Shown here: in pieces, positions 15,519 to 51,150 of the stretch
Position numbering within the stretch: the stretch's first letter is position 1
Layout: every line of letters begins with the position of its first letter
From: Panopea generosa
Lineage: Eukaryota; Mollusca; Bivalvia; Adapedonta; Hiatellidae
Assembly: GCA_029582155.1 (NCBI GenBank)
Contig: CM055901.1
Coordinates: 7,296,874-7,360,873, forward strand
DNA length: 64,000 nt
Direction: 5' to 3'
Position numbers and translations under genes: made by a program
Notes under the pieces: model-generated
Seen by the model: the letters and a program-made list of their open reading frames with translations, nothing else
Told to the model about the DNA's origin: nothing
Database searches by the model: none

Positions 15519-18500
15519 GATAACGCTCATTCTTTGTCCACCAACGGTACGGACCTGGGGGTAGTCACTTAGTCTCCGTCCACCAACGGTACGGACCTGG
15601 GGGTAGTCACTTAGTCTCCGTCCACCAACGGTACAGACCTGATGTCATTCACTCATTCTCTGTCCACCAACGGTACGGACCTGATGTCATTCACTCATTC
15701 TCTGTCCACCAACGGTACGGACCTGATGTCATTCACTCATTCTCTGTCCACCAACGGTACGGACCTGATGGCATTCACTCATTCTCTGTCCACCAACGGT
15801 ACGGACCTGGAGGTCAGTCACTCATTCTCTGTCCACCAACGGTACGCACCTGGGGGTAGTCACTAAGTCTCTGTCCACCAATGTTACAGACCTGGGGGTA
15901 GTCACTTAGTCTCCGTCCACCAACGGTACGGACCTGGGGTTAGTCACTCATTCTCTGTTCGCCAACGGTATGGACAGGAGGCCAGTCACTCATTCTCTGT
16001 CCACCAACGGTACGGACTTAGATGTCAGTCAATCATTCTCTGTCCACTAATGGTACATTCCTGGGGGATAGTTACTCATTTTCTGTCCACCAACGGTATG
16101 GACCTGGGGATAGTAACTAAGTTTCTGTCCACTAACGGAACGGACCTGGGGATAAGTCACTCATTTTCTGTCCACCAACGGTACGGACCTGGGGTAGTCA
16201 CTAAGTATTCTTCCATTAACGGTACGGACGTGGGTGTAAGTCACTTATTCTCTGTCAACCAACGGTACAGACCTGGGTATTAGTCACTCATTCTCTATCC
16301 ACCAACGATACGGATGTAAGGGTTAGTCCTCACTCTCTACCCAACGACGGTACGGATGTAAGGGGTAGTCACTTTTTTCTCTGTCAACCAACGGTACAGA
16401 CCTAGGGTTTGTCAGTCATTCTCTGTCCGCAAACGATACGGATCAGGGGATTAGTCACTCATTCTCTGTCTACCAACGGCACGGACGTAAAGGTTAGTCA
16501 CTTATTCTCTGTCCGTCAACTGTACCGACCTGGGGGTTAGTTACTTATTCTCTGTCCGCCAACGATACGGAAGTAAGAGTTAGTCACTCACTCTCTGTCC
16601 ACCAACGGTACGGACCTGGGAGTAGTCACTCATTCTCTGTCCACAAACGGCACAAACCTGGGGGTAGTCACACCTTCTCTGTCCACCACCGGTACGGACC
16701 TGGTGGTAGTCACTTAGTGTCCGTCCGCCAACGGTACGGACCTGGGGGTAATCACTCGTTCTATGTCCGCCAACGATATGGACCTGGGGGTAGTAGCTTA
16801 TTCTCCGTCCACCAACAATACGGACCTAGGGGTAGTCACTAAGTGTCCGTCCACCAACGTCGCGGACATGGAGGTTAGTCACTCATTCTCGGTCCACCAA
16901 CGGTACGGACCTAGGGGTAGTCACAAAGTATCCGTCCACCAACGTCGCAGACATGGAGGTTAGTCACTCATTCTCCGTCCACCAACGGTACGGACCTGGG
17001 GGTAGTAACTAAATATCCGTCCACCAACGTCGCGGACATGGAGGTTAGTCACTCATTCTCCGTCCACCAACGGTACGGACCTGGGGGTAGTCACTAAGTA
17101 TCCGTCCACCAACGTCGCGGACATGGAGATTATTCACTCATATTCCGTCCACCAATGGTTCGGACCTGGGGGTAGTCACTTAGTATCCGTCCACCAACGT
17201 CGCGGACATGGAAGTTAGTCACTCATTCTCCGTCCACCATCAATACGGATCTGGGGGTAGTCACTAAGTATCCGTCCACCAACGTCGCTGACATGGAGGT
17301 TAGTCACTCATTCCCGGTCCACCAACGGTACGGACCTAGGGGTAGTCACTAGGTATCCGTCCACCAACGTCGCGGACATGGAGGTTAGTCACTCATACTC
17401 GGTCCACCAACGGTACGGAACTGGGGGTAGTCACTAAGTATCCGTCCACCAACGTCGCGGACATTGAAGTTAGTCACTCATTCTCTGTCCACCAACGGTA
17501 CGGACCTGGGGGTAGTCACTAAGTATCCGTCCACCAACGTCGTGAACATGGAGGTTAGTCACTCTTAGGGTAGTCACTCATTCTCGATCCACCAACGGTA
17601 CGGACCTGGGGGTAGCCACTAAGTATCCGTCTATTAACGTTATAAACCTAGGGGTTAGTCACTCATTCTCTGTCAGCCGATGGTACAGACCTTAGGGTAG
17701 TCACTCATTCTCTGTCAACCAAAGGCACCGACCTGGTGGTCAGTCTCTCATTCTATGTCCTCCAACGGCACGGACCCGGAGGTTAGTCACTTATTCTCTG
17801 TGTACCAACGGTACGGACCTGTGGTAGTCACTAATTCTCAGTCCGCCAACGATACGGACCTGTCACTAAGTATCCGTCCACCAACGTCGCGGACATGGAG
17901 GCTAGTCACTCATTCTCCGTCCATCAACGGTACGGACCTGGGGGTAGTCACTAAGTATCCTTCCACCAACGTCGCGGACATGGAGATTAGTCACTCATTC
18001 TCGATCCACCAACGGTACGGACCTGGGGGTAGTCACTAAGTATCCGTCCACCAACGTCGCGGACATGGAGGTTAGTCACTCATTCTCGGTCCACCAACGG
18101 TACAGACCTGGGGGTAGTCACTAGGTATCCGTCCACCAACGTCGCGGACATGGAGATTAGTCACTCATTCTCGATCAACCAACGGTACGGACCTGGGGGT
18201 AGTCACTAAGTATCCGTCCACCAACGTCGCGCACATGGAGGTTAGTCACTCATTCTCGGTCCACCAACGGTACAGACCTGGGGGTAGTCACTAGGTATCC
18301 GTCCACCAACTTCGCTGACATGGAGGTTAGTCACTCATTCTCGGTCCACCAACAGTACGGACCTGGGGATAGTCACTAAGTATCCGTCCACCAACGTCGC
18401 GGACATTGAAGTTAGACACTCATTCTCTGTCCACCAACGGTACGGACCTTGGGGTAGTCACTAAGTATCCGTCCACCAACATCGCGGACATGGAGGTAAG

Positions 18501-21412
18501 TCACTCATTCTCCATCCACCATCAGTACGGACCAAGAGGTAAGTCACTCATTCTCCGTCCACCAGTGGCACGGAATTGGGGGTCAGTCACTTATTTTCTG
18601 TCCACCAACGGTACGGACCTGGGGTAGTCACTCATTCTGTGTCTGCCGACGATATGGACCTGGGGGTAGTCACACATTCTCCGTCCACCATCAATACGGA
18701 CCTAGAGGTAGTCACTAAGTGTCCATCCATCAGTGGCACGAACTTTGGGGTCATTCACTCATTTTTTGTTCACCAACGGCACGGACGTAAGGGTTAGTCA
18801 CACATTCTTTATCCACCAACAGTACGGACCTGGGATTAGTCACTAAGTCTATGTCTGCCAACGGTACGGACCTTAGGGTAGACACTTATTCTCTGTCCGC
18901 CAACGATACGGACCTGGGGTAGTCACTAATTCTCTGTCCGCTAACAATACGGACCATGGGGTAGTCACTTAGTCTCCGTCCACCAACGGTACGGACCTGG
19001 AGGTCAGTCACTCATTCTCTGTCCACCAATGGTACAAACCTGGGGTAGTCACTAAGTCTCCGTCTATTAACGTTATAAACCTGGGGGTTAGTCACTTATT
19101 TTCTGTCTGCCGATGGTACAGACCTTAGGGTAGTCACTCATTCTCTGTCAACCAAAGGCACCGACCTGGTGGTCAGTCTCTCATTCTATGTCCTCCAACG
19201 GCACGGACCTGGAGGTTAGTCACTCATTCTCTGTGTACCAACGGTACGGACCTGTGGTAGTCATTAATTCTCTGTCCGCGAACGATACGGACCTGGGAGT
19301 TGTCACTAAGTCTCCGTCCACCAACGATGCGGACCTGGGGTAGTCACTTAGTCTCCGTCCACCAACGGTATGGAACTGGAGGTCAGTAACTCATTCTCTG
19401 TCCACCAACGGTACGAACCTGGGGTAGTCATTAAGTTTGCGTCTATTAACGGTACGAACCTGGGGGTAAGTCACTCATTCTCTGTCTGCCGATGGTACTG
19501 ACCTTGGGATAGTCACTCATTCTCTGTCAACCAAAGGCCACAACCTGGTAGTCAGTCTTTCATTCTATGTCCTCCAACGGCACGGTTGTAAGGGTTAGTC
19601 ACTTATTCTCTGTCCATCATCGGTACGGTCCTGGTGTTAAGTCACTCATTCTCTGTCCGCCAACGATACGGTCCTGGGATAGTCACTTAGTCTCCGTCTA
19701 CCAACGGTACGGACCTGGGGGAAGTCACTGAATTACCGTCCACCAACGATACGGACCTGGGGTAGTCACTTAGTCTCCGTCCACCAACGGTACGGACCTG
19801 TGGTAGTCATTAATTCTCTGTCCGCCAACGATACGGACCTGGGAGTTGTCACTAAGTCTCCGTCCACCAACGATACGGACCTGGGGTAGTCACTTAATCT
19901 CCGTCCACCAACGGTACGGAACTGGAGGTCAATAACTCATTCTCTGTCCACCAACGGTACGAACCTGGGGTAGTAACTAAGTTTGCGTCTATTAACGGTA
20001 CGAACCTGGGGGTAAGTCACTCATTCTCTGTCTGCCGATGGTACAGACCTTGGGATAGTCACTCATTCTCTGTCAACCAAAGGCCACGACCTGGTAGTCA
20101 GTCTCTCATTCTATGTCCTCCAACGGCACGGTTGTAAGGGTTAGTCACTCATTCTCTGTCCATCAACGGTACGGACCTCGGGTTTAGTCACTCATTCTCT
20201 GTCTGTCAACGGTACGGACCTGTGGTAGTCACCATTTCTCTGTCCGCCAACGAAACGGGCCTGGGAGTTGTCACTAAGTCTCCGTCCACCAACGATACGG
20301 TCCTGGGATAGTCACTTAGTCTCCTTCTACCAACGGTACAGACCTGGGGGAGTCACTGAATTATCTTCCACCAACGATACAGACCTGAGGGTAGTCACTT
20401 AGTCTCCGTCCACCAACGGTACGGACCTGGGTGTAGTCACCAATTCTCTGTCCGCCAACGAAACGGGCCTAGTAGTTGTCACTTAGTCTCCGTTCACCAA
20501 CGATACGGACCTGGGGTAGTCACTTAGTCTCCGTCTACCAACGGTACGGACCTGGGGTAAGTCACTAAATTACCGTCCACCACTGATACGGACATTGGGG
20601 TAGTCACTACGTCTCCGTCCACCAACGGCACGGACATTAGGGTTGGTCAAGCATTCTGTCCACCAACGGCACGGACCTGGGGGTTAGTCACTCATTCTCT
20701 GTTCGCCAACGGTACGGACCTGGGGGTTAGTCACTCATTCTCCGTCCATCAACAGTACGGACCTGGGGGTTAGTCACTCATTCTCTGTTCACCAACGGTA
20801 TGGACCTGGGGGTTAGTCACTCATTCTCCGTCCATCAACAGTACGGACCTGGGGGCCAGTCACTCATTCTCTGTTCGCCAACGGTACGGACCTGGGGGTT
20901 AGTCACTCATTCTCCGTCCATCAACAGTACGGACCTGGGGGTTAGTCACTCATTCTCTGTTCACCAACGGTATGGACCTGGGGGTTAGTCACTCATTCTC
21001 CGTCCATCAACAGTACGGACCTGGGGGCCAGTCACTCATTCTCTGTTCGCCAACGATATGGACCGGCGGCCAGTTACTCATTCTCCGTCCATCAACGGTA
21101 CGGACCTGGGGGTTGGTCATGCATTCTGTCCACCAACGGTACGGACATTGGGGTTGGTCATGCATTCTGTCCACCAACGGCATGGACCTGAGTGTCAGTC
21201 ACTCATTCTCTGTCCACCAACGGTACGGACATTGGGGTTGGTCATGCATTCTGTCCACCAACGGCATGGACCTGAGTGTCAGTCACTCTTTCTCTGTCCA
21301 CCAACGGTACGGACATTGGGGTTGGTCATGCATTCTGTCCACCAACGGCATGGACCTGAGTGTCAGTCAGTCATTCTCTGCCAACCAACAATACGGACAT
21401 GTGGGATAGTCA
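15519..21412 (+). repeat. 42-bp satellite array, about 5.9 kb
   Basis: Roughly 140 units of TCTGTCCACCAACGGTACGG followed by ACCTGGGGGTAGTCACTCAT and two more bases. Exact spacing at 15661 and 15703 gives 42 bp. From about 16845 to 18500 the array becomes a dimeric higher-order repeat of about 84 bp, alternating a CAACGTCGCGGACATGGAGG variant with a CAACGGTACGGACCTGGGGG variant. Between 21100 and 21380 another higher-order unit (GGTTGGTCATGCATTCTGTCC type) repeats three times. Because 42 is a multiple of three, several frames stay open for long stretches; these are not genes. Confidence 0.97.
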
Positions 21413-21990
21413 AAAAAGGCCCTAACGACATTTGTGTAAAATATTATTCACGTTTGAATAAACATAATTAAACCCAACATGAAATATCACAAAAACACAA
21501 CGATTGGCCTATGACTCAAGTTCTGATCTGTGTTTCAACGATACGAGTGGTTTGCTTTGTTCATTTTCCTGTGTCCGGAAATTAAATAGCAAACAAAACA
21601 AGGAAGTACAATTAATTACATTGACTATACTTAGATAAACATGCCAATGAACACGACAGCATATTTGATATCGGAAAATGAAGCCATAACTTATAATAAA
21701 GGTAAGATAAAACATATTTTAATTTGTTAGTTTAAAACCAAGAGCATTATTATCTATAGTGCATCTTAAATAACTTTAAAAAGTGTTTTTAAATTAGTTG
21801 GAAAGGGGAGTTGTGGGGGTAGCAATGTTGCATGTTTCATATCTCATGAATTCAATCAAACAGTCAATAATTTTCTTATATTTGTTGCTTTATGTTTGTT
21901 CAACGCATCCTATTATCAGATATTAGTAATTATCGTAATGTTATCTATCATTGATATATATATATATAAATAATTTAATCTAATTTTCAG
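21413..21990. other. TLR upstream region with probable 5' UTR intron
   Basis: A TAATTTTCAG acceptor ends at 21990, 42 bases before the TLR start codon. A matching donor candidate (AAAG|GTAAGA) lies at 21702. An untranslated exon ending near 21701, spliced to 21991, is plausible but unproven. Confidence 0.35.
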
Positions 21991-22032
21991 AATAAAAATA
22001 ATAAAAGATGCGCATCTATCAGATTTAAGACA

Positions 22033-24126
22033 ATGGCGTATGTACATGACTTCTCGTTTACGCTTGGTGCTACGCTGTTGGTTGCTTTGTGTTTCTGCGA
22101 TGTATCAGTATCTCACACTAACATTACCGTACCAACAACCAGAAAGTTGTGCCGTATACATATGGACATAGCGAACTGCTCTGGACAAGGACGTAATCTA
22201 ACGTACATTCCGAAACTTGGACAACGGATACACCGTCTGATATTTAACAAAAACTACTTGCCGTTTGTAAGCAGTGTGACATTTGAAAACATCAGTGTTG
22301 AAAACATTGAAATATTGACACTGGAACATGACGGTATACAACATATCACAGCCAACGCGTTCAACACATTTGCAAATTTACGAAATCTAAGCCTGTCTGG
22401 AAATAACATACCGTTAAATCAACTTGAGAAACTTATGCAATTTTTGTCAAAGAAAGAGAGTTTGAGGCGTCTCTATCTCAACTCAATGTCAATATCACAT
22501 ATCCCTAAAACTTTTTTCTCAAATATAACAGAAAACAATTTAGCTGATCTTTCTCTGGGTTACAATGGTTTAACAACCATATACCAAGACATGTTTCAAA
22601 TGTTTAAAAAGTTAAAAGTTCTTTGTCTTAAAAGCAATCGAGTTACAACATTTCAAGTACCTGCACTGGAACATTTAGAGTTGCTAGTACTATCGTCTAA
22701 TGACCTCCAGACCTTTCCTAACTTTTGCGATAACATTTTGCAAAAAACTTATACACCTTCAATCTCAACTTTATTCATCCAGAGAAACAAAATCCGCTCT
22801 GTCAATTCTACAAATTTCAAATGTCTTAAAACTTTAGTTATTCTTAACCTCGCCGAAAACTATATAGTTGAATTTCAAACCGATTTGTTATCTGAGTTAA
22901 ATAATTTAGCAATTCTTCTCTTATATAATATGAGACTGCCATATTTAAAAATATACCCAAAGGCGTTCCGGTCTACGACGTTACGATATCTTAATATTCG
23001 AAATGACGCCAAAGCAATAGATATGTTTGTAAATCCAAACGAAACATTTATGCACATTCCCCATTTAGACCATTTAGATATAGGTTATATCAATTTCAAC
23101 GGTCAAACCGACGACTGGTTGGCGAATTTGTTAAGTAATTTGTCAAATTTGACAAAACTGGGTATGGTGAATTGCCAATTACGATATTTTCCTATACAGA
23201 TAGTAAAAAACAGACCAATGTTACATTACGTGAGGCTTTCTAGTAACAAAAATACTTCAATCAACCTTTCAGCATATAAACATGTGTCGAAACTGTTTTT
23301 AAACAATAATCAAATAATAACAATAAATCAAAATGATCTGCCTGGTAAGAACTTGCAGATACTTGATATGTCAAACAACCCATTTGTTTGTCAATGTACG
23401 TTAAATCCATTTATCAGTTGGCTACGTAACCATATAAAAATTGTAAACATTAAGAACTATCCAAATGGTTATGTTTGCGCTATGCCATCGCACATGAAAG
23501 GTAAACTTCTCTCAAATATGTCATTTACGTACAATGAGTGTCATCCATGGGGCGTAGGAATTTGGGTCGGAGTTGTCGGTGGACCTCTAGTAATTTCATT
23601 TATCGTTATTGCAATTATTGTTTACAAATATAGATGGAGTATCAAACATTATATGTTTCTTTTACGGAAAAGACGACAGTATCAACAGTTAGACGGGCAT
23701 AATTTTGGCTTCGATGCTTTTGTCGGATATAACCAAATCGACCACGAATGGGTCTACGATCATCTTCTTCCGATTTTGGAAGAACAGAACGGATACAAAC
23801 TTTGTATTCATGATAGGGATTTTAGACCAGGTGTTTATATTCATGATAACATAACAAAGTGTATGGAAGACAGTAGGAAAATCATCATTATTCTCACTAA
23901 TGAATTTGCTAAGAGCGGATGGTGCACGTTTGAGTTAAAGATTGCGCACACTAAACATATAGAGGACGGAACAGAGCTTATTGTCATCATGCTTCAAAAA
24001 CCGGAAGCACGTTATATCAACAAATCTCTGAAGTTGCTGCTGCAGACAACAACATTTATAGAATGGTCAGACGACGAGGTAGGGCGCTTATTGTTCTGGG
24101 AGAAACTGGCAGACGCGATGAAGTGA
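22033..24126 (+). CDS. TLR: Toll-like receptor (single coding exon, complete)
   Basis: It encodes 697 residues in one exon, a type I membrane receptor of innate immunity. A signal peptide spans about 1-27 (hydrophobic LGATLLVALCFCDVSVS). Leucine-rich repeats fill about 60-445, seen as repeated LxxLxLxxN units. A single C-terminal cysteine cap follows (about 448-505, NNPFVCQC then two further Cys). The transmembrane helix is about 508-531 with a basic stop-transfer (RKRR). The cytoplasmic TIR domain is 558-697. It keeps box 1 (FDAFVGY), a BB loop with the family Pro (C.HDRDFRPG), and box 3 (FWEKL). One cysteine cluster makes it the single-cluster type. The ligand is not predictable. The start sits in a good context (ACAATGG), and the gene is intact. 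Confidence 0.97.
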   Translation: MAYVHDFSFTLGATLLVALCFCDVSVSHTNITVPTTRKLCRIHMDIANCSGQGRNLTYIPKLGQRIHRLIFNKNYLPFVSSVTFENISVENIEILTLEHDGIQHITANAFNTFANLRNLSLSGNNIPLNQLEKLMQFLSKKESLRRLYLNSMSISHIPKTFFSNITENNLADLSLGYNGLTTIYQDMFQMFKKLKVLCLKSNRVTTFQVPALEHLELLVLSSNDLQTFPNFCDNILQKTYTPSISTLFIQRNKIRSVNSTNFKCLKTLVILNLAENYIVEFQTDLLSELNNLAILLLYNMRLPYLKIYPKAFRSTTLRYLNIRNDAKAIDMFVNPNETFMHIPHLDHLDIGYINFNGQTDDWLANLLSNLSNLTKLGMVNCQLRYFPIQIVKNRPMLHYVRLSSNKNTSINLSAYKHVSKLFLNNNQIITINQNDLPGKNLQILDMSNNPFVCQCTLNPFISWLRNHIKIVNIKNYPNGYVCAMPSHMKGKLLSNMSFTYNECHPWGVGIWVGVVGGPLVISFIVIAIIVYKYRWSIKHYMFLLRKRRQYQQLDGHNFGFDAFVGYNQIDHEWVYDHLLPILEEQNGYKLCIHDRDFRPGVYIHDNITKCMEDSRKIIIILTNEFAKSGWCTFELKIAHTKHIEDGTELIVIMLQKPEARYINKSLKLLLQTTTFIEWSDDEVGRLLFWEKLADAMK

Positions 24127-34539: not shown

Positions 34540-36900
34540 CTTCTCGCTGAGTTCTAGATGTCGCTCGAGTGATACCATAACGGGTTCGTAAACGGGTTTC
34601 GACCACTATAAAATAAAACTTAATAGGTTGTTGAGAAGGGGATGGGGTGAACATTCTATGCTCCCATATGATGTAAGCAGTTTGGATCGCGATATAGATA
34701 TACGGAACGTGTAGGAGAAAGAACTGTGTAAAAAATTGATATTCCCGTCATAGGACATTTTTATGTTATTTTTTTGAGTAGTTTGCTTTAAATTGTATAA
34801 AATGTATAATTGTATATTCGTAATTTTGTTTCGTGTAAAATTAAAATTGCAAATTGTAAATTTTATTTTGAGTATACTTGTATTCTACCCTCATGAGTTG
34901 TCAACCCTTGATCATTTTGCTACACTGTACGTACGATTGGTACACTTTATGATATCGTAAAATCGTTTCTGTGTTTTCCAGATGGAAGAAAATCCGGGAA
35001 AGATATTATTGGAAGGGTTCGTTTGAAGATGTGAAACGCTCTGTAGAAAAGTGCGACAAATTCCAGAAAAAGGGGTCTCATCAGAAGGCAAAGCAACCAC
35101 TAAGGCCGATAGCAGTCTCATATACTGCATTCCAGCAAATCGGGATGGATTTAGTTGGACCATTCGAAGAAACAGCAAACGGTATGTATATATCGCAACT
35201 CGTCAGTTATTAAAACCATTAATGCGTTTTACCTCTGTTTAACATAATACATTCATTAGAATCAATTACATTCCGCATAGTAATACAATGCCTTAAAGAA
35301 GAATTTGAACGAACAAAAAAAAAAAGGAAATAAAAATCGTTTTAATCCCTGTGTTATGTCATAGTCTGGTTAACCGAAGATAGTATGTTTTATTTTTTAG
35401 ATGACTATCTGCTCATCAATCTGTCTGACATAATTTAGATTTTGTAGATCTATGTATAATTTCAACTTGGCCAATACATCAAATATAAAGAAAATGGTCG
35501 GATAAATGTGCTCTATATGGTCGAATTTTTTTAATTATCATATCTGAAAAAATTGACATTTGTGGGAGAATGAGGTCATTCGTCACCCTACACGTGGGAA
35601 TGTTATCATTTACTGGTGGAGAGTGTGTGATTGAATACTGGTTAAACTTCACATACTCACACATATATACATACACACATTCACAAACGCAGACATACAT
35701 ACATTAACACATACATACAAAGACATACATACATACATCGTACGTACGTACGTACTTGCGTGCATGCATGCATAGATATACACATACAAATGTACGTACA
35801 TACGTACATACATAAAAACACACACACATACAGACACATAAACACATGCTTTTGATGGTTTATATGAACGATTCTGTTTGGACATATTATCTTGCATGTA
35901 ACAAGTAGATTATGATCTTGACCGAATACTTGACGAATTGGGTAGAGGCCGAGGCTATCGTGGACAAATCCGCGACCAGCGTGCTGAATGTTCTGGTCAA
36001 ATTTATATCCAGGCATGGATGTCCAGAAGTACCTATTACCGACCAAGGACGGGAGTTTTGCAATTCTTTGAACGATTTGTTTTGTCAAAAATGGGCATCG
36101 ACCATCGCGTGGCTTCAGCATATCATCCACAGAAAGGAGGCCACACGGAACGCTATAACAGAACACTATGTACCATGCTCTCTACATATGTAAATGATAA
36201 GCAAACGGACTGGGAAGATAAGTTGCCGTACGTTTTATTTGCAAACAGAACAGCGGAACATTCATCGACCAAGGCGACTCATTTTCATCTCGTTTATTGC
36301 AGACAAGGACGGCTGCCAGTAGAGCTAGAATGTCAGCAGCACCCACAGCAGCTGTGGACACGTTGGACAATTTGTCAGTTATGTGCAATGCCTTCGTGCA
36401 ACTGGATTGCTGCAGAGAGGTAGCAAGCATCAATATCAAAGCTGCGCAGAAGAAGCCACATTTTTGAAATTGGAGAAAGGGTTCTTTTGCATAATACAAG
36501 AAGACGTGCAAGGAAAGGCGATAAACTGGGAGCAAGATGGACGGGGCCTTACTCTGTCATGGTATTGAACAACAATGGAACATACGCTCTCGATGGACTG
36601 ATTACGGTTATTAATGGCACTAGGTTGAAACTGTATCAGACTCTTGACAATGAAAATGATCACAACGATTGCAAACGACCCAGTGACAACAACTGTGAAA
36701 AAGAACTGCCGTTCAAGAAGAGAAAATCAGTACAAGAAGCTGAAGTAGTGATCACCCGGTGTGAAGAAGCACAAAGCCAATGTCTCATGAACTTTAAGAT
36801 AGCAATTGGCAAGCAGAAAAATCATTGCTGTTCGGTCACAGCGTCCGGGATGAACATTGTAACAAAGCGAGTACTCGCAAGATGAACGAAATTCAAAACC
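34540..36900 (+). mobile_element. Integrase element fossil, copy C (Ginger1/Ty3-type integrase)
   Basis: This is a broken element with about three to five breaks. 34605-34690 matches the distal end of copy A. Parts in order: the second half of a His-Cys zinc-binding region with RERYYWKGS.EDV and a Cys pair (about 34980-35090); the start of the integrase core ending MDLVGPFEET (about 35180); a non-coding, microsatellite-bearing stretch of about 720 bp that is probably an intron; the rest of the core with TDQGREF and SAYHPQ.GGHTERYN (about 35910-36330), holding the second Asp and the Glu of the DDE triad; and a C-terminal region (to about 36890) with a GPY-like WTGPYSV motif. No reverse transcriptase, gag or LTRs were seen. 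The closest matches from memory are KRBA2/GIN-like integrases and Ginger1 transposons. Divergence suggests an old copy. Confidence 0.75.
35654..35845. repeat. CATA/CGTA tetranucleotide microsatellite
   Basis: Mixed CATA, CGTA and CATG repeats within the presumed intron of copy C. Confidence 0.9.
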
Positions 36901-42046: not shown

Positions 42047-43245
42047 GAGTACCGGAGTAATACGTGTTCATGTAAATTACCAGAGCAATACGTGCTCGAG
42101 TAAACCACCTCACTAACAACATGAGCAATACATGTTCAAGTAAAAACCTCACTGACAACCAGAGCAATCCGTGTTCAAGTAAAAACCTCATTCAATTACC
42201 AGAGCAATACGTGTTCAAACCCTCACTGATAACCAGAGAAATACGTGATCAAGTAACATACCTAACTTAACAACCAGAGCAATACCTGATCATGTAAAAT
42301 ACCTCATTTAGTTACCAAAGCAATCCGTGTCCAAGTAAAATACCTCACTAAATTACGAGAGTAATACCTGTTCAAGTCAATATCTCACTGACAACCAGAG
42401 CAATACGTGTCCAAGTAAAATACCTTACTTAATGACCAGAGCAATGGTTCTTCATGTCAATACCTCACTGACAACCAGAGCAATTCGTGATCAAGTAAAA
42501 TATCTCACTAAACTACCAGAGCAATACGTGCTCCAGTAAAATACCTCACTAAACAACCAGAGCAATCCGTGTTCAAGTAAAAACCTTACTAAATTACCAG
42601 AGCAATACGTATTCATGTAAAAACCTCACTGACAACCAGAGCAATTCGTGGTCAAGTAAAATACTTCATTAAACAACCAGAACAATACATGTTCAAGTTA
42701 AATACCTCACTAAATTACCAGAGCATTACGAGTTCAAGTAAAATACCTCACTAAACTTCCAGATTACGTGCTTCAGTAAAATACCTCACTAAACTACCAG
42801 AGCAATACGTGTTTAAGTGAAATACCTGACTGAATTACCAGAGCAATACGTGTTCAAGTTGAAACCTCACTGAACTACCAGATTAAAACTAGTTCAAGTA
42901 AAATACCTCACTATACTACCAGAGCACGTGCTCATGTAAAATACCACCGCACTGAACTACCAGAGCAATACGTGTTAAAGTAAAATGCCTGACTAAACTA
43001 CCAGAATAAAACGTGTTCAAGTAAAATACCTCACTAAACAACCAGAGCACATGCTTGCGTAAAATATCTCATTAAACTACCAGAGCTATACGTGTTCAAG
43101 TACAATACCTAAAAAATACCTGACTGACAACCAGAGAAACCCGTGTTCAAGTAAGATACCTCACTAAACAACCAGAGCAATACGTGTTCAGTAAAAAAAA
43201 CTCGCTGACAACCAGAGTTATATGTATTCAAGTAAAATACCTAAA
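42047..43245 (+). repeat. 41-bp tandem array, left part
   Basis: Units of ACCAGAGCAATACGTGTTCA followed by AGTAAAATACCTCACTAAACT, moderately diverged. It continues at 44262 after an insertion of about 1 kb. Confidence 0.95.
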
Positions 43246-44261
43246 AAATCATCTTCAACCATAAATTAAATAAAAAAGAACTCTGTTTAACAAACTTAAA
43301 ACATTATATTCGAAATCTTAATAACACAGAAAGATATATAGCAAAAGTAAATTTTAATTTGGTAAGATTTGATGCTCTTTGGGAGGTCTATAAACCTCTT
43401 GTAATCTAAGATATGTTTATTGATTCCCCTCCGGGTTTTTGTGGTTAAATTGCTTTAAATATTTATACAATCAAGTACAGTAGACTTGGTCCTTTCAATC
43501 TGTTTTTTTTTTCATACAATTAGTATTATTATTATAAAAAAATGCTATTATTAAGTATTTAAAGAACATGGAAAAAAAGCAGTTTTATCAATCTCAGATG
43601 ATTTTAATGTCTATAAATAAGTAAATGTTACATAATTTTTTGAATTAGAAATACATAATGTTACATGGTCATTCTTCGAGATTATATATAGTGTACAAAT
43701 ATGTAACATACAACATATATGTCTATGTTGAATACTTCAATGAAGTTATCTTATTTTGTATACAACGCACGTAGAGCGGGTTTCTATTTTACCAGCAAGA
43801 AATTTGCTTTGGTTTACCGTTTTAACCGATTGTAGAATGGTGATTCAACTATTCAGTAACCGCTGGGAATTAAAAGTAACGCAGTTTGTTTTAATCCAGT
43901 GCAAGCCACCACGGTTACATATATTTCTTTAAACTTAAGTTTATTATAGTTACTTCTACGAATACCCGAGTGTGTTGATGAAACATAAGCCTGCTCTCTG
44001 TTGTTTTTGTTGTTTTTTTTAAGGGTTTTTGTTTGTGAGGAATGTATATAGTCATTGTTTAACTTATTTGATATCAATAACAAATATATATATATATATA
44101 AAGTATTGGAGTTAACAAATTCACTAAAAGACTTGGAAAGTTTGCCCTTAATTTTACAAATGTGAAAATGTTGAATTCTGTATATATTATGATATAATTG
44201 TGCTTCTTTACGTCTAGTATTGTTAAACTGTTACAATGAAATAAAAAAATACAAAAAATAA
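43246..44261. other. About 1 kb AT-rich insertion splitting the 41-bp array
   Basis: Unrelated to the flanking repeat. Both sides carry TAAAATACCT, but that string belongs to every array unit, so a target duplication cannot be proved. No inverted ends or coding region seen. Confidence 0.6.
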
Positions 44262-45892
44262 AATACCTCAATAAACAACCAGAACAATGCGAGCTCAAGT
44301 AAAAACCTCACTGAACTACCAGAACAATACGTGTTCAAGTAAAATACCTCACTTAACTACCAGAGCAATACGTGTTCAAGTAAAATACCTCACTAAATTA
44401 CCAGAGCAATACATGTTCTAGTAAAATACCTCACTAAATTACCAGAGCAATACATGTACAAGTAAAATACCTTACTAAATTACCAGAGCAATACATGTTC
44501 TAGTAAAATACCTCACTAAATTACCAGAGCAATACATGTACAAGTAAAATACCTTACTAAATTTCCAGAGCAAAACATATTCAAGTAAAATACCTTACTA
44601 AACTACCAGAATAATACGTGTTTAAGTAAAATACCTTACTAAACTACCGGAGCAATACGTGTTCAAGTAAAATACCTGCCTGGCGACCAGAGCAATACGT
44701 GTTCAAGTAAAATACCTGCCTGACGACCAGAGCAATACGTGTTCAAGTAAATACCTCACTAAATTACCAGAGCAAAACGTGTTCAAGTAAAATACCTGCC
44801 TGACGACCAGAGCAGTACGTGTTCAAGTAAAATACCTGCCTGACGACCAGAGCAATACGTGTTCAAGTAAAATATCTGCCTGGCGACTAGAGCAATACGT
44901 GTTCAAGTAAAATACCTGCCTGGCGACCAGAGCAATACGTGTTCAAGTAAAATACCTGTCTGACGATCAGAGCAATACGTGTTCAAGTAAATACCTCACT
45001 GAACTACCAGAGCAATACGTGTTCAAGTAAAATACCTCACTAAATTACCAGAGCAATACATGTTCTAGTAAAATACCTCACTAAATTACCAGAGCAATAC
45101 ATGTACAAGTAAAATACCTTACTAAATTATCGGAGCAATACATGTTCAAGTAAAAACCTCACTGAACTACCAGAGCAATACGTGTTCAAGTAAAATACCT
45201 TACTAAACTACCAAAGTAATACGTGTTTAAGTAAAATACCTTACTTAACTATCAGAGTAGTACGTGTTCAAGTAAAATACCTTACTAAACTACCAGAGTA
45301 GTACGTGTTTAAGTTAAATAACTCACATAATTACCAGAGCAATACGTGTTCAATTAGAATACCTCAATGAACTACCAGAGCAATACGTGTTCAATTAAAA
45401 TACCTCAATGAACTACCAGAGCAATACGTGTTTAAGTAAAATTCCCCACTTAACTACCAGAGTAATACGTGTTCAAGTAAGATACCTCACTAAACAACCA
45501 GAGCAATGCGTGTTCAGAAAAAAATCTCGCTGACAATCAGAGTTATACGTGTTCAAGTAAAACCCTCAATAAACTACCAGACCAATACGTGTTCAAGTAA
45601 AATACCTCACTAAACAACCAGAGCAATACGTGATCAAGTAAAATACCTCACTTAACAACCAGAGCAATACGTGATTAAGTAAAATACTTCACTAAACAAC
45701 CAGAGCAAAACGTGTTCAAGTAAAATCCCTCACTAAATTATCAAAGCAATACGTGTTCAAGTAATGTACCTCACTAAACAACCAGAGCAATACGTGCTCC
45801 AATAAAATACCTCACTAAATTACCAGAGCAATACGTGCTCGAGTAAAATACCTGACTTACTACCAGAGCAATACGTGTTCAAGTAAAATTCA
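44262..45892 (+). repeat. 41-bp tandem array, right part
   Basis: The same unit as 42047-43245, spacing 41 bp (for example 44360 to 44401). It is more homogeneous in the middle (44640-45000), where a CCTGCC/CCTGACGACCAGAGC variant dominates. Confidence 0.95.
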
Positions 45893-46283
45893 ATTACAGT
45901 GCCATTATAACATGCCTACATGTTTCACTGGCAGTGTCATTTAGCATCGCTATGTCTTTCAATGGCAGTGTTATTTAGCATCGCTACGTGTTTCACTGAC
46001 AGTGCCATTTAAAATTTCTGCGTGTTTCAATGGCAGTGTCATTTAGCATCTCTACGTGTTTCAATGAGAGTGCCACTTTACATTTCTGTGTGTTTCAATT
46101 GCAGTGTCGTTTAGATATTCTGCGTGATTCAATCGCACTGTCATTTAGCATTTCTGCGTGTTTTAATGGCAGTGTCTTTCAAATTTTATGCATGTTTCAA
46201 TGACAGTGTCATTTAATATTTCTGCGTGTTTCAATGAAGTGTCATTTAACATTTCTGTGTGTTTCAATGGCAGTGTCATTTAA
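45893..46283 (+). repeat. 34-bp tandem array, left part
   Basis: Consensus CATTTCTGCGTGTTTCAATGGCAGTGTCATTTAA. It directly abuts the 41-bp array and is split by the palindromic element. Confidence 0.93.
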
Positions 46284-49200
46284 GGAGGAATATACCTTTT
46301 AAATTATTTTCGAAATCAGTGGAATATTTGGTATGTAATGAAACTAAAAGTAATTTCCAATTTGAATATGCTTTTTTTCTGCGGTAAATATAACACTTCT
46401 TAACCTATGATGTCTTAAACATGGCCATGTTTGGTCTTTTTGACGTCCCGATTTATAGCAGCAAAATCGCGTATTTGTCGGCCTGTCAAGTTATACCGAA
46501 TGTACAGAATCGAAACACATACCACCACGTACACATTCAACGGATATATGAATTTACATATGCAATAATTACGACGAACGCCAAATTCTGAAAATATTAG
46601 CGAAAAACGGAAATTATTATTTTCTCGATTTTTTCGAAAAAAATGCTTCAAATCAAAATTACCAAAAAACAAACAGAGCGATTTTGGAATAATTTTTATT
46701 TGATTTCTAACAATATGCTTCACAGTGATTGTGAGATTTTTAAAACAATTGACGAACTAGATTTTTTTGATTTTTAATTATTTAACCCCACCCTACGTCA
46801 AAAAAGACGTCAACATATTGCATAATTCTACACGTTTTCCATAAGATTTTCGGTAGTTGATTAAGGTTAAATAATCTTCTAAATCAGCGGTTCAATAAGT
46901 ATATTATGAAACTAGAAGAAATTTACAATGTGAATATGTGTGTTTTGCAGCGGTCAATAGAATATATATTAATATGTGACGTCGTAAACATGGCCATGTT
47001 CAGCATTTTTGACGTCCCAATGTATAGCAGCAAAATCGCGTATTTTTTCGACCTCAGTTGATTTATTCCTTATACACAGAATAGAAACATATATCACCAT
47101 GTACACATTTGACGGATGTATGGATTTACAGATGCAAAAATTATGACGAACGCCACATTTTGAAAATACTAGCGAAAAACGGAAACTATTTTTTCTCTCG
47201 ATGTTTTCGTAAAAACGGCTTCAAATAAAAATTACCAAAAATCAAACCAAGCGAATTTTGCATAATTTTTATATATTTTCATACTATTATGTTTTCATAC
47301 TATATATTGTACAATAATTGTGAGATTTTTAGAAACATTGACAAACTAGATTTTTTTATGATATTCAATTATTTAACCCTACCCTACGTCAAAAACGCTT
47401 TAAAGCAAACGTCAACGTCGGTATAGCGCATGAGGTATACGTTTTGTGATAATTAAACAAGTTTGTTCTTACCATTATATTAGTATTTTGTGCACACTAG
47501 TTATAAATACTTCTGCTGTTTAGTGGCAACTAATTTGTCTATAGCATTTATGATAGCGTGTCTGTTTGGTGCACGTACAAAACCGTCATTTTTTTTTTCA
47601 CTTACAGGGAACTGGATTCCAAAACAATATTCTCATTTCTGACTAGCTCCGCGACTGCTAGTGAAATGTGGACATCACGGTTGTCAGTTATTAGAACAAC
47701 AGGTCTGGCCTTTCTAAAATTCGGAGCAAACTGTTACACATACATAAAATGGGTTTGAAACAATACTGTCTATGATGAGCAGTGAAAAGCCACGATCCAG
47801 GTATATTGTCATTGAACGTACGTGGGAGCATGGGGCTGGGTGGAAGGGTGGCTTTTTACTGCTTTAGTGGGTATTGTTTCAAGCTCATTTTATAAATGTG
47901 TACTAAACAGATTGCTCCGAACTTTAGAAAGACCAGACCTATTGTTCTAATAATTGACAACCGTGATGTCCACATTTCACTAGCAGTCGTGGAGCTAGTC
48001 AGAAATGAGAATATTGTTTTGGAATCCAGTTCCCTGTAAGTGAAAAAAAATGACGGTTTTGTACGTGCACCAAACAGACACGCTATCATAAATGCTATAG
48101 ACAAATTAGTTGCCACTAAACAGCAGAAGAATATATATCAAGTGTGCACAAAATACTAATATAATGGTAAGAACAAACTTGTTTAATTATCACAAAACGT
48201 ATACCTCATGCGCTATACCGACGTTTTGACGTTTGCTTTAAAGCGTTTTTTGACGTAGGGTAGGGTTAAATAATTGAATATCATAAAAAATCTAGTTTGT
48301 CAATTTTTCTAAAAAGCTCACAATTATTGTACAATACATAGTATGAAAACATATAAAAATTATGCAAAATTCGCTTGGTTTGATTTTTGGTAATTTTGAT
48401 TTGAAGCCGTTTTTACGAAAAAAACGGGAGTCAAAATAGTTTCCGTTTTTCGCTAGTATTTTCAAAATGTGGCGTTCGTCATAATTTTTGCATCTGTAAA
48501 TCCATACATCCGTCAAATGTGTACATGGTGATATATGTTTCTATTCTGTGTATTAGGAATAACTCAACTGAGGTCGAAAAAATACGCGATTTTGCTGCTA
48601 TACATTGGGACGTCAAAAGGGCTGAACATGGCCATGTTTACGACGTCACATATAAATATATATTCTATTGACCGCTGCAAAAAACACATATTCACATTGT
48701 AAATTTCTTCTAGTTTTATAATATACTAATTGAACCACTGATTTAGAAAATAATTTAACCTTAATCAACTACCGAAAATCTTATGGAAAACGTGTAGAAT
48801 TATGCAATATGTTGACGTCTTTTTTGACGTAGGGTGGGGTTAAATAATTAAAAATAAAAAAAATCTAGTTCGTCAATTGTTCTAAAAATCTCACAATCAC
48901 TGTGAAGCATATTGTTAGAAATCAAATAAAAAATATTCCAAAATCGCTCTGTTTGTTTTTTGGTAATTTTGATTTGAAGCATTTTTTTCGAAAAAATCGA
49001 GAAAATAATAATTTCCGTTTTTCGCTAATATTTTCAGAATTTGGCGTTCGTCGTAATTATTGCATATGTAAATTCATATATCCGTTGAATGTGTACGTGG
49101 TGATATGTGTTTCGATTCTGTACATTCGGTATAACTTGACTGGGGTCGACAAATACGCGATTTTGCTGCTATAAATCGGGACGTCAAAAAGACCAAACAT

Positions 49201-49343
49201 GGCCATGTTTACGACATCATAGGTGAAGAAGTGTTATATTTACCGCAGAAAAAAAGCATATTCAAATTGGAAATTACTTCTTGTTTCATTACATACCAAA
49301 TATTCCACTGATTTCGAAAATTATTTTAAAGGTATATTCCTTC
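46284..49343. mobile_element. 3,060-bp palindromic (foldback) element inserted at TTAA
   Basis: TTAA flanks both ends (46280-46283 and 49344-49347), and the empty 34-bp unit carries a single TTAA. The ends begin GGAGGAATATACC and, read inward from the right, GAAGGAATATACC. Each arm is about 1.5 kb and the two are near-exact reverse complements, leaving a central loop of about 50 bases (roughly 47795-47845). Within each arm, a unit of about 575 bp appears twice in tandem, each with an AACATGGCCATGTT palindrome. TTAA duplication suggests a Kolobok or piggyBac-type non-autonomous element. No transposase is encoded; the mirrored 66- and 86-residue open frames near the centre look incidental. Confidence 0.92.
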
Positions 49344-51150
49344 TTAACATTTCTGCGTGTTTGAATTACAGTGACATTTAACATTTCTACGTGTTTCAAT
49401 GGCAGTGTCATTAAGCATCGCTGCGTGTTTCAATGGAAGTGTGGTTTAACATTTCTGTGTGTTTCAATGAAAGTTTCATATAACATTGCTGCGTGTTTCA
49501 ATGAAAGAGCCATTTTACATTTCTGCGTGTTTCGATGGCAGTGTCGATTAAGTATTCTGCGTGATTCAATCACAGTATCATTTAGTGTTTATACGTGTTT
49601 GAATGGCAGTATCGTTTAAATTTTCTGCGTGTTTCAATGGCAGTGTCATTTAGCATTTCTGCGTGTTTCAATGGTTTAATGGCATTGTCGCTTTATATGT
49701 CTCCGTGTTTCAATGACAGTGCCATTTAACATTTTTGCATGTTTAAATGGCAGTTTCATTTAAATTTTCTGTGTTATTCATTCGCAGTGTCATTTAGCAT
49801 TACTGTGTGTTTCAATGGCAGTGTCGTTGAATTTTTTTGTGTGTGTTCTAATGGCAGTAGCATTTAACATTTATGCGGTGTTTCAGTTCCATTAAACATT
49901 TCTGCATGTTTTAATGGCAGTGTCGTTTTATCATTTCTGCGTGTTTCAGTGGCACTATCCTTTACCATTTCTGCGTGTTTCAATGACAGTGTCCTTTAAA
50001 TTTTCTGCGTGTTTCGGTGTTAGTGACATTAGACATTTCTGTGTGTTTCAATAAAAGTGTCGTTTAGCATTTCTGTGTGTTTCAATGATAGTGTCGTTTA
50101 ATATGTCTGTGGTGTTTTAATGGCAGTGTTATTGAACATTGGTGTGTGTTTCAATAGAAATAGCCTACAACATGTTTTAACGATATTGTCATTTAAACTT
50201 TCTGCGTGTTTCAACGATTGTGTTGTTTAACATTTATGTAGTATTATATTTCATTTGTAGTTTCGTTAAACATGTCTGCGTGACAGTGCCATTTGACATT
50301 TCTGCGTGACAGTGCCATTGGACATTTCTCCGTGTCAGTGTCACTTTACATTTTTGCGTGGCAGTGCCATTTAGCATGTCTGTGTGACGGTGTCATTTAA
50401 CATGTCTGCGTGACAGTGTAACTTTATGCATGAGTGTCACTTAACATTTCTGCGTGTCAGTGTCACTTTACATTCTTACGTGGCAGTGTCATTTAACATG
50501 TCTGCGTGGCAGTGGCATTTAACATATCTGCGTGTCAGTGTCGCTTAACATGTCTGCGTGACAGTAGCATTTAAAGTTTATGCGTGTCAGTATCATTTAA
50601 CATCCATGCGTGTTTCAATGGCTAAGTCGTTAAACATTTCTGCGTGTTTCAATGATACTGTCGTTTAACACTTCTGTAGTATTTCATTGGCAGTTTCATT
50701 TAACATTTCTGCGTGTCAGTGTCACTTAACAGTTTTGCGTGGTAGTGGCATTAAACATTTTTGCGTATGTGTCATTTAACATTTCTGCGTGGCAGTGGTA
50801 TTTAACATTTCTGCGTGAGTGTCATTTAACCGTTCCGTGCGAGTGTCATTTAACATTTCTGCGTGGCAGTGGTATTTAACATTTCTGCGTGAGTGTCATT
50901 TAACCGTTCCGTGCGAGTGTCATTTAACATTTCTGCGTGGCAGTGGTATTTAACATTTCTGCGTGAGTGTCATTTAACCGTTCCGTGCGAGTGTCATTTA
51001 ACATTCCTGCGTGGCAGTGGCATTTAACATTTCTGCGTGAGTGTCATTTACCATTTCTGCGTGGCAATGTCATTAAACATTTCTACGTGGCAATGTCATT
51101 GAACATTTCTGTTTGTTTCAATGGCAGTGTCATTTAGTTAACATTTTCAG
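49344..51150 (+). repeat. 34-bp tandem array, right part, with derived shorter units
   Basis: It starts as the 34-bp unit and from about 50270 changes to shorter units lacking the TTTCAATGG segment. From 50791 to 51012 a 74-bp higher-order unit repeats exactly three times (starts at 50791, 50865 and 50939, with the next unit at 51013). Confidence 0.93.

Follow-up and report, generated by a model that had tools for sequence, protein, structure and literature searches.

The 64,000 nucleotides of Panopea generosa DNA analyzed here (the window) contain a palindrome of about 3 kb within a minisatellite, which raises the question whether such a structure is a mobile element, to which group of transposons it belongs, and how two arms of this length arose and stayed alike. 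The original prediction described a nearly perfect palindrome with arms of about 1.5 kb and a loop of about 50 bases, inserted at TTAA, and this geometry was confirmed: the arms are identical in 1,443 of 1,502 aligned columns (96%, plus 56 gap columns), and the self-palindrome score was 4,655 bits, compared to at most 39.2 bits in 50 mononucleotide shuffles. The inverted repeat makes up ~98% of the element, which has no transposase or exonuclease coding domains and conforms to the foldback type, in which long, internally repetitive terminal inverted repeats represent most of the element. The following features were recognized, with L035 and L036 denoting two larger elements that are described below.

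46284..49343: entire palindrome, 3,060 bp, boundaries exact to the base
46284..47793 (+): left arm, from self-comparison and arm alignment
47794..47847: loop, 54 nt, length counted by eye
47848..49343 (-): right arm, inverted copy, from self-comparison and arm alignment
46284..46296 (+): left terminus GGAGGAATATACC, read from the sequence
49331..49343 (-): right terminus, GAAGGAATATACC on the minus strand, read from the sequence
46280..46283: left TTAA target-site duplication, from window sequence, genome copies and empty site
49344..49347: right TTAA target-site duplication, from the same three sources
45889..46283: left flank, host minisatellite with 34-bp units
49344..50155: right flank, host minisatellite with 34-bp units
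46284..46866 (+): left arm outer unit, collinear with the left end of KolobokD-like L035 and L036
46867..47395 (+): left arm inner unit, collinear with the reversed right terminal repeat of L035/L036 minus its terminal ~13 bp
47396..47622 (+): left arm inner part, resembling the final ~60 nt of the L035 open reading frame (ORF) plus its 3' flank
48759..49343 (-): right arm outer unit, from arm alignment
48246..48758 (-): right arm inner unit, from arm alignment
48019..48245 (-): right arm inner part, resembling the final ~60 nt of the L035 ORF plus its 3' flank

Insertion site and genomic distribution

The insertion into the 34-bp minisatellite is clean: when the flanks are joined with a single TTAA, the 34-bp units on either side are in phase, so that the empty site is restored, and Tandem Repeats Finder recognizes one array of 35.2 units. 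In the window, the target duplication is ambiguous (TA, TTA, TAA or TTAA) because the bases beside TA are symmetric, and the three shorter versions were rejected because the genome copies fit TTAA. All 28 complete copies, including the one in the window, have TTAA on both sides and variable bases further out; they represent 25 distinct sites, as L009–L011 have common flanks and likewise L014 and L015. The informative test comprises 21 of these copies (18 distinct sites), which were fetched by sequence match and whose ends were placed with a mismatch-tolerant motif that includes TTAA, whereas the other seven (L029–L035) are no test because they were picked from exact TTAA-plus-terminus places. 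Outside this count are L025, L027, L037 and L038 with one end each, the first two being the only ones among 20 initially fetched regions with a single recognizable end, as well as L040–L042. The duplication is the 4-bp TTAA of Kolobok elements, in contrast to the 8–10 bp or 7 bp of Mutator-type foldbacks and Galileo, respectively.

Several other repeats and genes were noted in the window. Past the 34-bp array, 26/24-bp variants of a similar motif occur (49344–51111), and on the left the last of the 41-bp arrays (44259–45889) runs straight into the array bearing the palindrome. Further minisatellites are located at 42073–43242 and at 15526–21412, the latter consisting of 42-bp units over 5.9 kb at ~46–52% GC. 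At 21979–24126 (+), a single open frame of 715 aa contains leucine-rich repeats together with a TIR domain (Pfam LRR_8, TIR) and represents a Toll-like-receptor-like gene. Two adjoining open frames at 35902–36885 (+) resemble by eye the integrase end of a Gypsy-type retroelement; they had no Pfam match at E 0.001.

In the assembly from which the window originates (1.47 Gb, 39 contigs), TTAAGRAGGAATATACC had 937 exact matches (485 + 452) and its reversed control none, while a 30-mer covering part of the loop had 323 matches with up to 3 mismatches (172 + 151; control 0); both numbers refer to places and not to proven complete elements. Using the first 601 bases as query yielded at least 81 matches, with 40 of 1,658 candidates scored. 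Among the first 100 listed terminus places, 23 facing pairs were found by eye and 54 termini had no exact partner; the spacing was 3,052–3,067 bp in eight pairs and ranged from 640 to 10,425 bp in the others. Besides the window copy, 11 of 20 fetched copies, chosen for strong matches, were full length, and all 12 share the same centre in the alignment. The window copy differs by 1.6% from a consensus built on 11 full-length copies, within a range of 1.2 to 3.5% for the 12 full copies. The palindrome is a mobile element and not an assembly error, as had been proposed from the TTAA duplication and the matching GRAGGAATATACC ends, and the proposed genome search for TTAA-flanked ends recovered many further copies, so that it belongs to a large family of mobile DNA.

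Relation to Kolobok transposons

L035 (5,168 bp) and L036 (5,127 bp) have the same ends as the palindrome, are flanked by TTAA, and their terminal repeats are 88–90% identical to the outer unit of the palindrome. In a 592-aa frame of L035, Pfam searches detected PF20700 (E 1.4e-22, residues 2–128), RNase_T (E 6.8e-8) and PML_C (E 2.3e-6); of three frames further upstream, one matched PF20700 above the cut-off (3.6e-10) and two below it (2.7e-4 and 0.023). The solved structures closest to the 592-aa frame are annotated as exodeoxyribonuclease III and TREX1, and a DISH motif was recognized in it by eye. Both a DDD/E transposase with C/DxxH and, downstream of it, the DEDDh exonuclease of KolobokD were found in L035 and not in the window element, which has GG or GA at both ends in agreement with the 5'-RR…YY-3' termini of Kolobok. 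According to PMC9587614, Kolobok elements have TTAA target duplications and RR…YY termini, and KolobokD, which occurs in molluscs, arthropods and cnidarians, additionally carries a DEDDh exonuclease. Because of the TTAA site, the RR…YY ends and the exonuclease, we read PF20700, which Pfam labels as 'Mutator', as a Kolobok domain, and since L035 combines PF20700 and the exonuclease with the published traits of Kolobok and KolobokD, we call the palindrome family KolobokD-like. An autonomous relative with the same ends had been expected to be of either Kolobok or piggyBac type, and the transposase-bearing relatives with such ends are Kolobok-type.

An intact transposase gene with the ends of the palindrome was not found among L035, L036 and the partial genome matches of at least 70%. 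In L035, the C-terminal 592 codons are open and the N-terminal part is distributed over separate frames, due to introns or decay. L036 has the next-best genome match (86%), with six stops in the matched stretch; the other matches of at least 70% are partial and mostly contain stops, and more distant matches (~30% identity) include open frames. Neither L035 nor L036 is the direct master, because their ends are just 88–90% identical to those of the palindrome. The 5,998-bp copy L021 was rejected as an autonomous element, being a palindrome with an insertion of ~2.95 kb in its right arm. Frames in this insertion (L021:7392–7741, minus strand) look by eye like what we take to be a P2X7-type cysteine-rich domain; they had no Pfam match up to E 1. 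Capture of a foreign DDE transposase was considered for an inner frame of the palindrome (47896–48036) with a weak match to DDE_3 (E 0.042, 14.1 bits vs a cut-off of 28.6), and its mirror frame had no DDE_3 match in the Pfam search. This idea was dropped because alignment, complemented by reading by eye, placed the downstream part of the frame at the 3' end of the ORF region in L035.

We consider it very likely that the palindrome is a KolobokD-like member of the Kolobok superfamily, namely a foldback-type DNA transposon that is non-autonomous and would be moved in trans. Direct support exists for insertion at TTAA, the high-copy family, the ends in common with elements containing transposase domains, the anatomy of the arms and the common centre. 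The enzyme would most likely be borrowed from a larger Kolobok-type transposon. It is very improbable that the element belongs to piggyBac or another group targeting TTAA and merely resembles Kolobok: piggyBac has a CCC-type terminus, whereas the palindrome termini are GR…YC, and the same-ended L035 contains PF20700 and an exonuclease domain. The argument for this assignment is that a TTAA target duplication is a hallmark of piggyBac as well, as stated in PMC9587614. That the palindrome originated from faulty assembly or from just one local inverted duplication has a negligible probability in view of 323 loop matches across the genome, many distinct flanks with TTAA, the restored empty site and arm-specific differences that are common to several copies, even though long inverted repeats are a classic problem in assembly and cloning.

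Anatomy, similarity and decay of the arms

Each arm had been described as a tandem duplication of a unit of about 575 bp. This holds for the outer ~1.1 kb, to which the doubling is confined, with offsets of 569–591 bp and two units that are 77–91% alike by piece and 78–82% overall, but not for the innermost ~0.4 kb, which is single. The outer unit tracks the left end of L035/L036 beyond the point where their left and right ends diverge, up to a fixed junction at arm position ~582. Beyond this junction, the arm tracks the reversed right end, starting ~13 bp inside the right terminus, and continues through the 3' flank into ~60 nt of the 3' end of the L035 ORF, the match to this coding end plus flank having ~75% identity. 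The 'tandem duplication' is therefore composed of two different ends, with the left end placed outside a right end lacking its own terminus. The same junction is kept in all five non-palindromic relatives compared (L029, L033, L040, L041 and L042; 85–93% identity), which count as four insertions because L040 and L029 have common flanks. As far as they were fetched, such relatives combine a doubled arm on one side with a single unit on the opposite side, with the doubled arm of L041 extending beyond the fetched stretch, and L030 has loop-side sequence beside a single arm. As the non-palindromic relatives have the same fusion, it probably occurred before the inverted duplication, and the doubled arm is probably older than the palindrome, which would be its inverted duplication. 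The interior of the relatives (query L029:1316–2460) itself belongs to a large repeat family with at least 55 matches (40 of 6,549 first-look candidates scored), of which those listed mostly have 80–90% identity and several are located on contigs C25 and C27.

We infer the following sequence of events. In a KolobokD-like lineage, the left end may have been attached, in inverted order, to the outside of a right end that lost its terminus, so that the resulting doubled arm would have had one usable terminus. Within a non-palindromic relative of ~4 kb, this arm would then have been duplicated in inverted orientation around the ~54-nt loop, through a process such as fold-back priming or template switching in gap repair. 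The resulting palindrome with two good termini could have spread by cut-and-paste transposition with transposase supplied in trans, and deletions would later have removed the centre or the greater part of one arm from some copies. L009–L011, L019, L020, L023, L031 and L039 fit such deletions, with junctions ranging from one extra base (L023) to an overlap of 8 bp (one junction of L031), and L034 is a palindrome derivative with an insert that resembles a reverse transcriptase by eye. The one-arm derivatives L019 and L039 have mirror-equivalent breakpoints at arm positions ~73 and ~1418–1423, the latter near the end of the homology with L029, L040, L041 and L042 (~1402–1406), and it is possible that this breakpoint position is recurrent.

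The high identity of the arms had been attributed to recent insertion or ongoing correction. In 11 full-length copies (22 arms; L015 was left out as a duplicate of L014), compared without a model of their relatedness, the two arms within a copy diverged on average by 4.4%; across copies, the mean was 4.9% for left against right arms, 3.7% for left against left and 4.3% for right against right. Left and right arms are separated by 27 columns, each in at least 8 of 11 copies, and 21 of these are in the innermost ~115 columns, where some are gaps at the arm ends. The remaining six are less clean, with the right state in the left arms of L016 and L022 at three columns and the left state in the right arms of L024, L026 and L028 at several. 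Given the small difference between 4.4% and 4.9% and the near-loop left/right differences common to the copies, the similarity of the arms is mostly inherited from one founder palindrome. A minority is due to arm-to-arm conversion, so that some correction did occur. This is indicated by the outer ~600 bp, where no column separates the arms and arm-to-arm distances are about as large as copy-to-copy distances, by alleles present in exactly two of the 22 arms, of which 22 were shared within a copy (2.00 per pair) and 12 by a left and a right arm from different copies (0.11 per pair), and by a randomization in which all 10,000 random pairings of arms were less close than the true pairing. In addition, 22 private substitutions occurred in both arms of one copy, where ~3.5 were expected by chance, compared to 335 in one arm.

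That continuing gene conversion keeps the arms alike, making the palindrome an actively maintained structure, would agree with this allele sharing, the pairing test and the unseparated outer part, but is unlikely considering the small overall effect, the many substitutions confined to one arm and the persistence of near-loop differences across copies. Still less probable is a role as source of hairpin RNA for small RNAs of the host or the element. By its geometry, a read-through transcript would fold into a hairpin of ~1.5 kb, and both arms contain the piece of the KolobokD-like ORF 3' end and flank; however, transposition by itself accounts for the abundance, and the coding match is short and diverged. 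Founder inheritance with some conversion remains our preferred explanation for the similarity of the arms. As a speculation to which we assign a slightly lower probability than to the hairpin source, the 3-kb palindrome itself could be the successful replicating form of a Kolobok-based foldback lineage, with read-through giving double-stranded RNA related to the family that moves it. If true, a hairpin with inverted copies of both ends and a bit of the 3' coding end would be a natural analogue of maize Mu killer.

Comparison with known elements

PALTTAA elements of Caenorhabditis are palindromic and inserted at TTAA. They were compared by name and label, the label PALTTAA2/PiggyBac being attached to a component in a table of PMC1431705, and differ in this label. 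KolobokD, as characterized in PMC9587614, shares the TTAA duplications and RR…YY termini and, through the same-ended L035, PF20700 and the exonuclease domain; the window element differs by lacking these domains, by its high proportion of inverted repeat, and by arms that fuse both ends of such an element. T2-MITEs of Xenopus, which are presumed Kolobok elements, are likewise non-autonomous, target TTAA and have an RR terminus within an AGGRR motif (PMC6004289), whereas the window element is 3 kb long and nearly all stem; the main text of PMC6004289 contains neither 'palindrom' nor 'foldback'.

The closest structural parallels are found in other superfamilies. In PMC3573991, Galileo of Drosophila mojavensis (P superfamily) includes 2-TIR and recombinant-TIR copies, i.e. 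derivatives without transposase that have long, internally duplicated terminal inverted repeats (TIRs), and the copies with the longest TIRs are never the nearly complete ones. The longest Galileo TIRs given there have 1,260 and 1,241 bp, compared to arms of ~1.5 kb around a 54-nt loop here, and the element described here is Kolobok-type with one founder recurring across the genome. Tetris and other foldbacks similarly are non-autonomous and have repeated units inside long TIRs, and foldback structure may arise independently in different lineages (cited in PMC4079207); for Tetris, the authors of that article suggest the Mutator superfamily and report target-site duplications of 8–10 bp and internal repeats of ~220 bp. 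Galileo and Tetris show that the same kind of element is already known in other superfamilies, and T2-MITEs are known as presumed non-autonomous Kolobok elements. Judged by title or abstract opening, searches of the open-access literature yielded no Kolobok foldback.

The window element adds a Kolobok-type member to the foldbacks. DNA palindromes are in many cases fragile sites that break readily (PMC7999016); in contrast, many copies of this family keep one founder centre, and the window copy and 11 of the 20 copies fetched for strong matches are full length. Since one genome contains non-palindromic relatives side by side with full palindromes and their shortened derivatives, it offers a stepwise record of how a palindromic transposon is born and decays, in which sites specific to one arm make conversion and deletion measurable.
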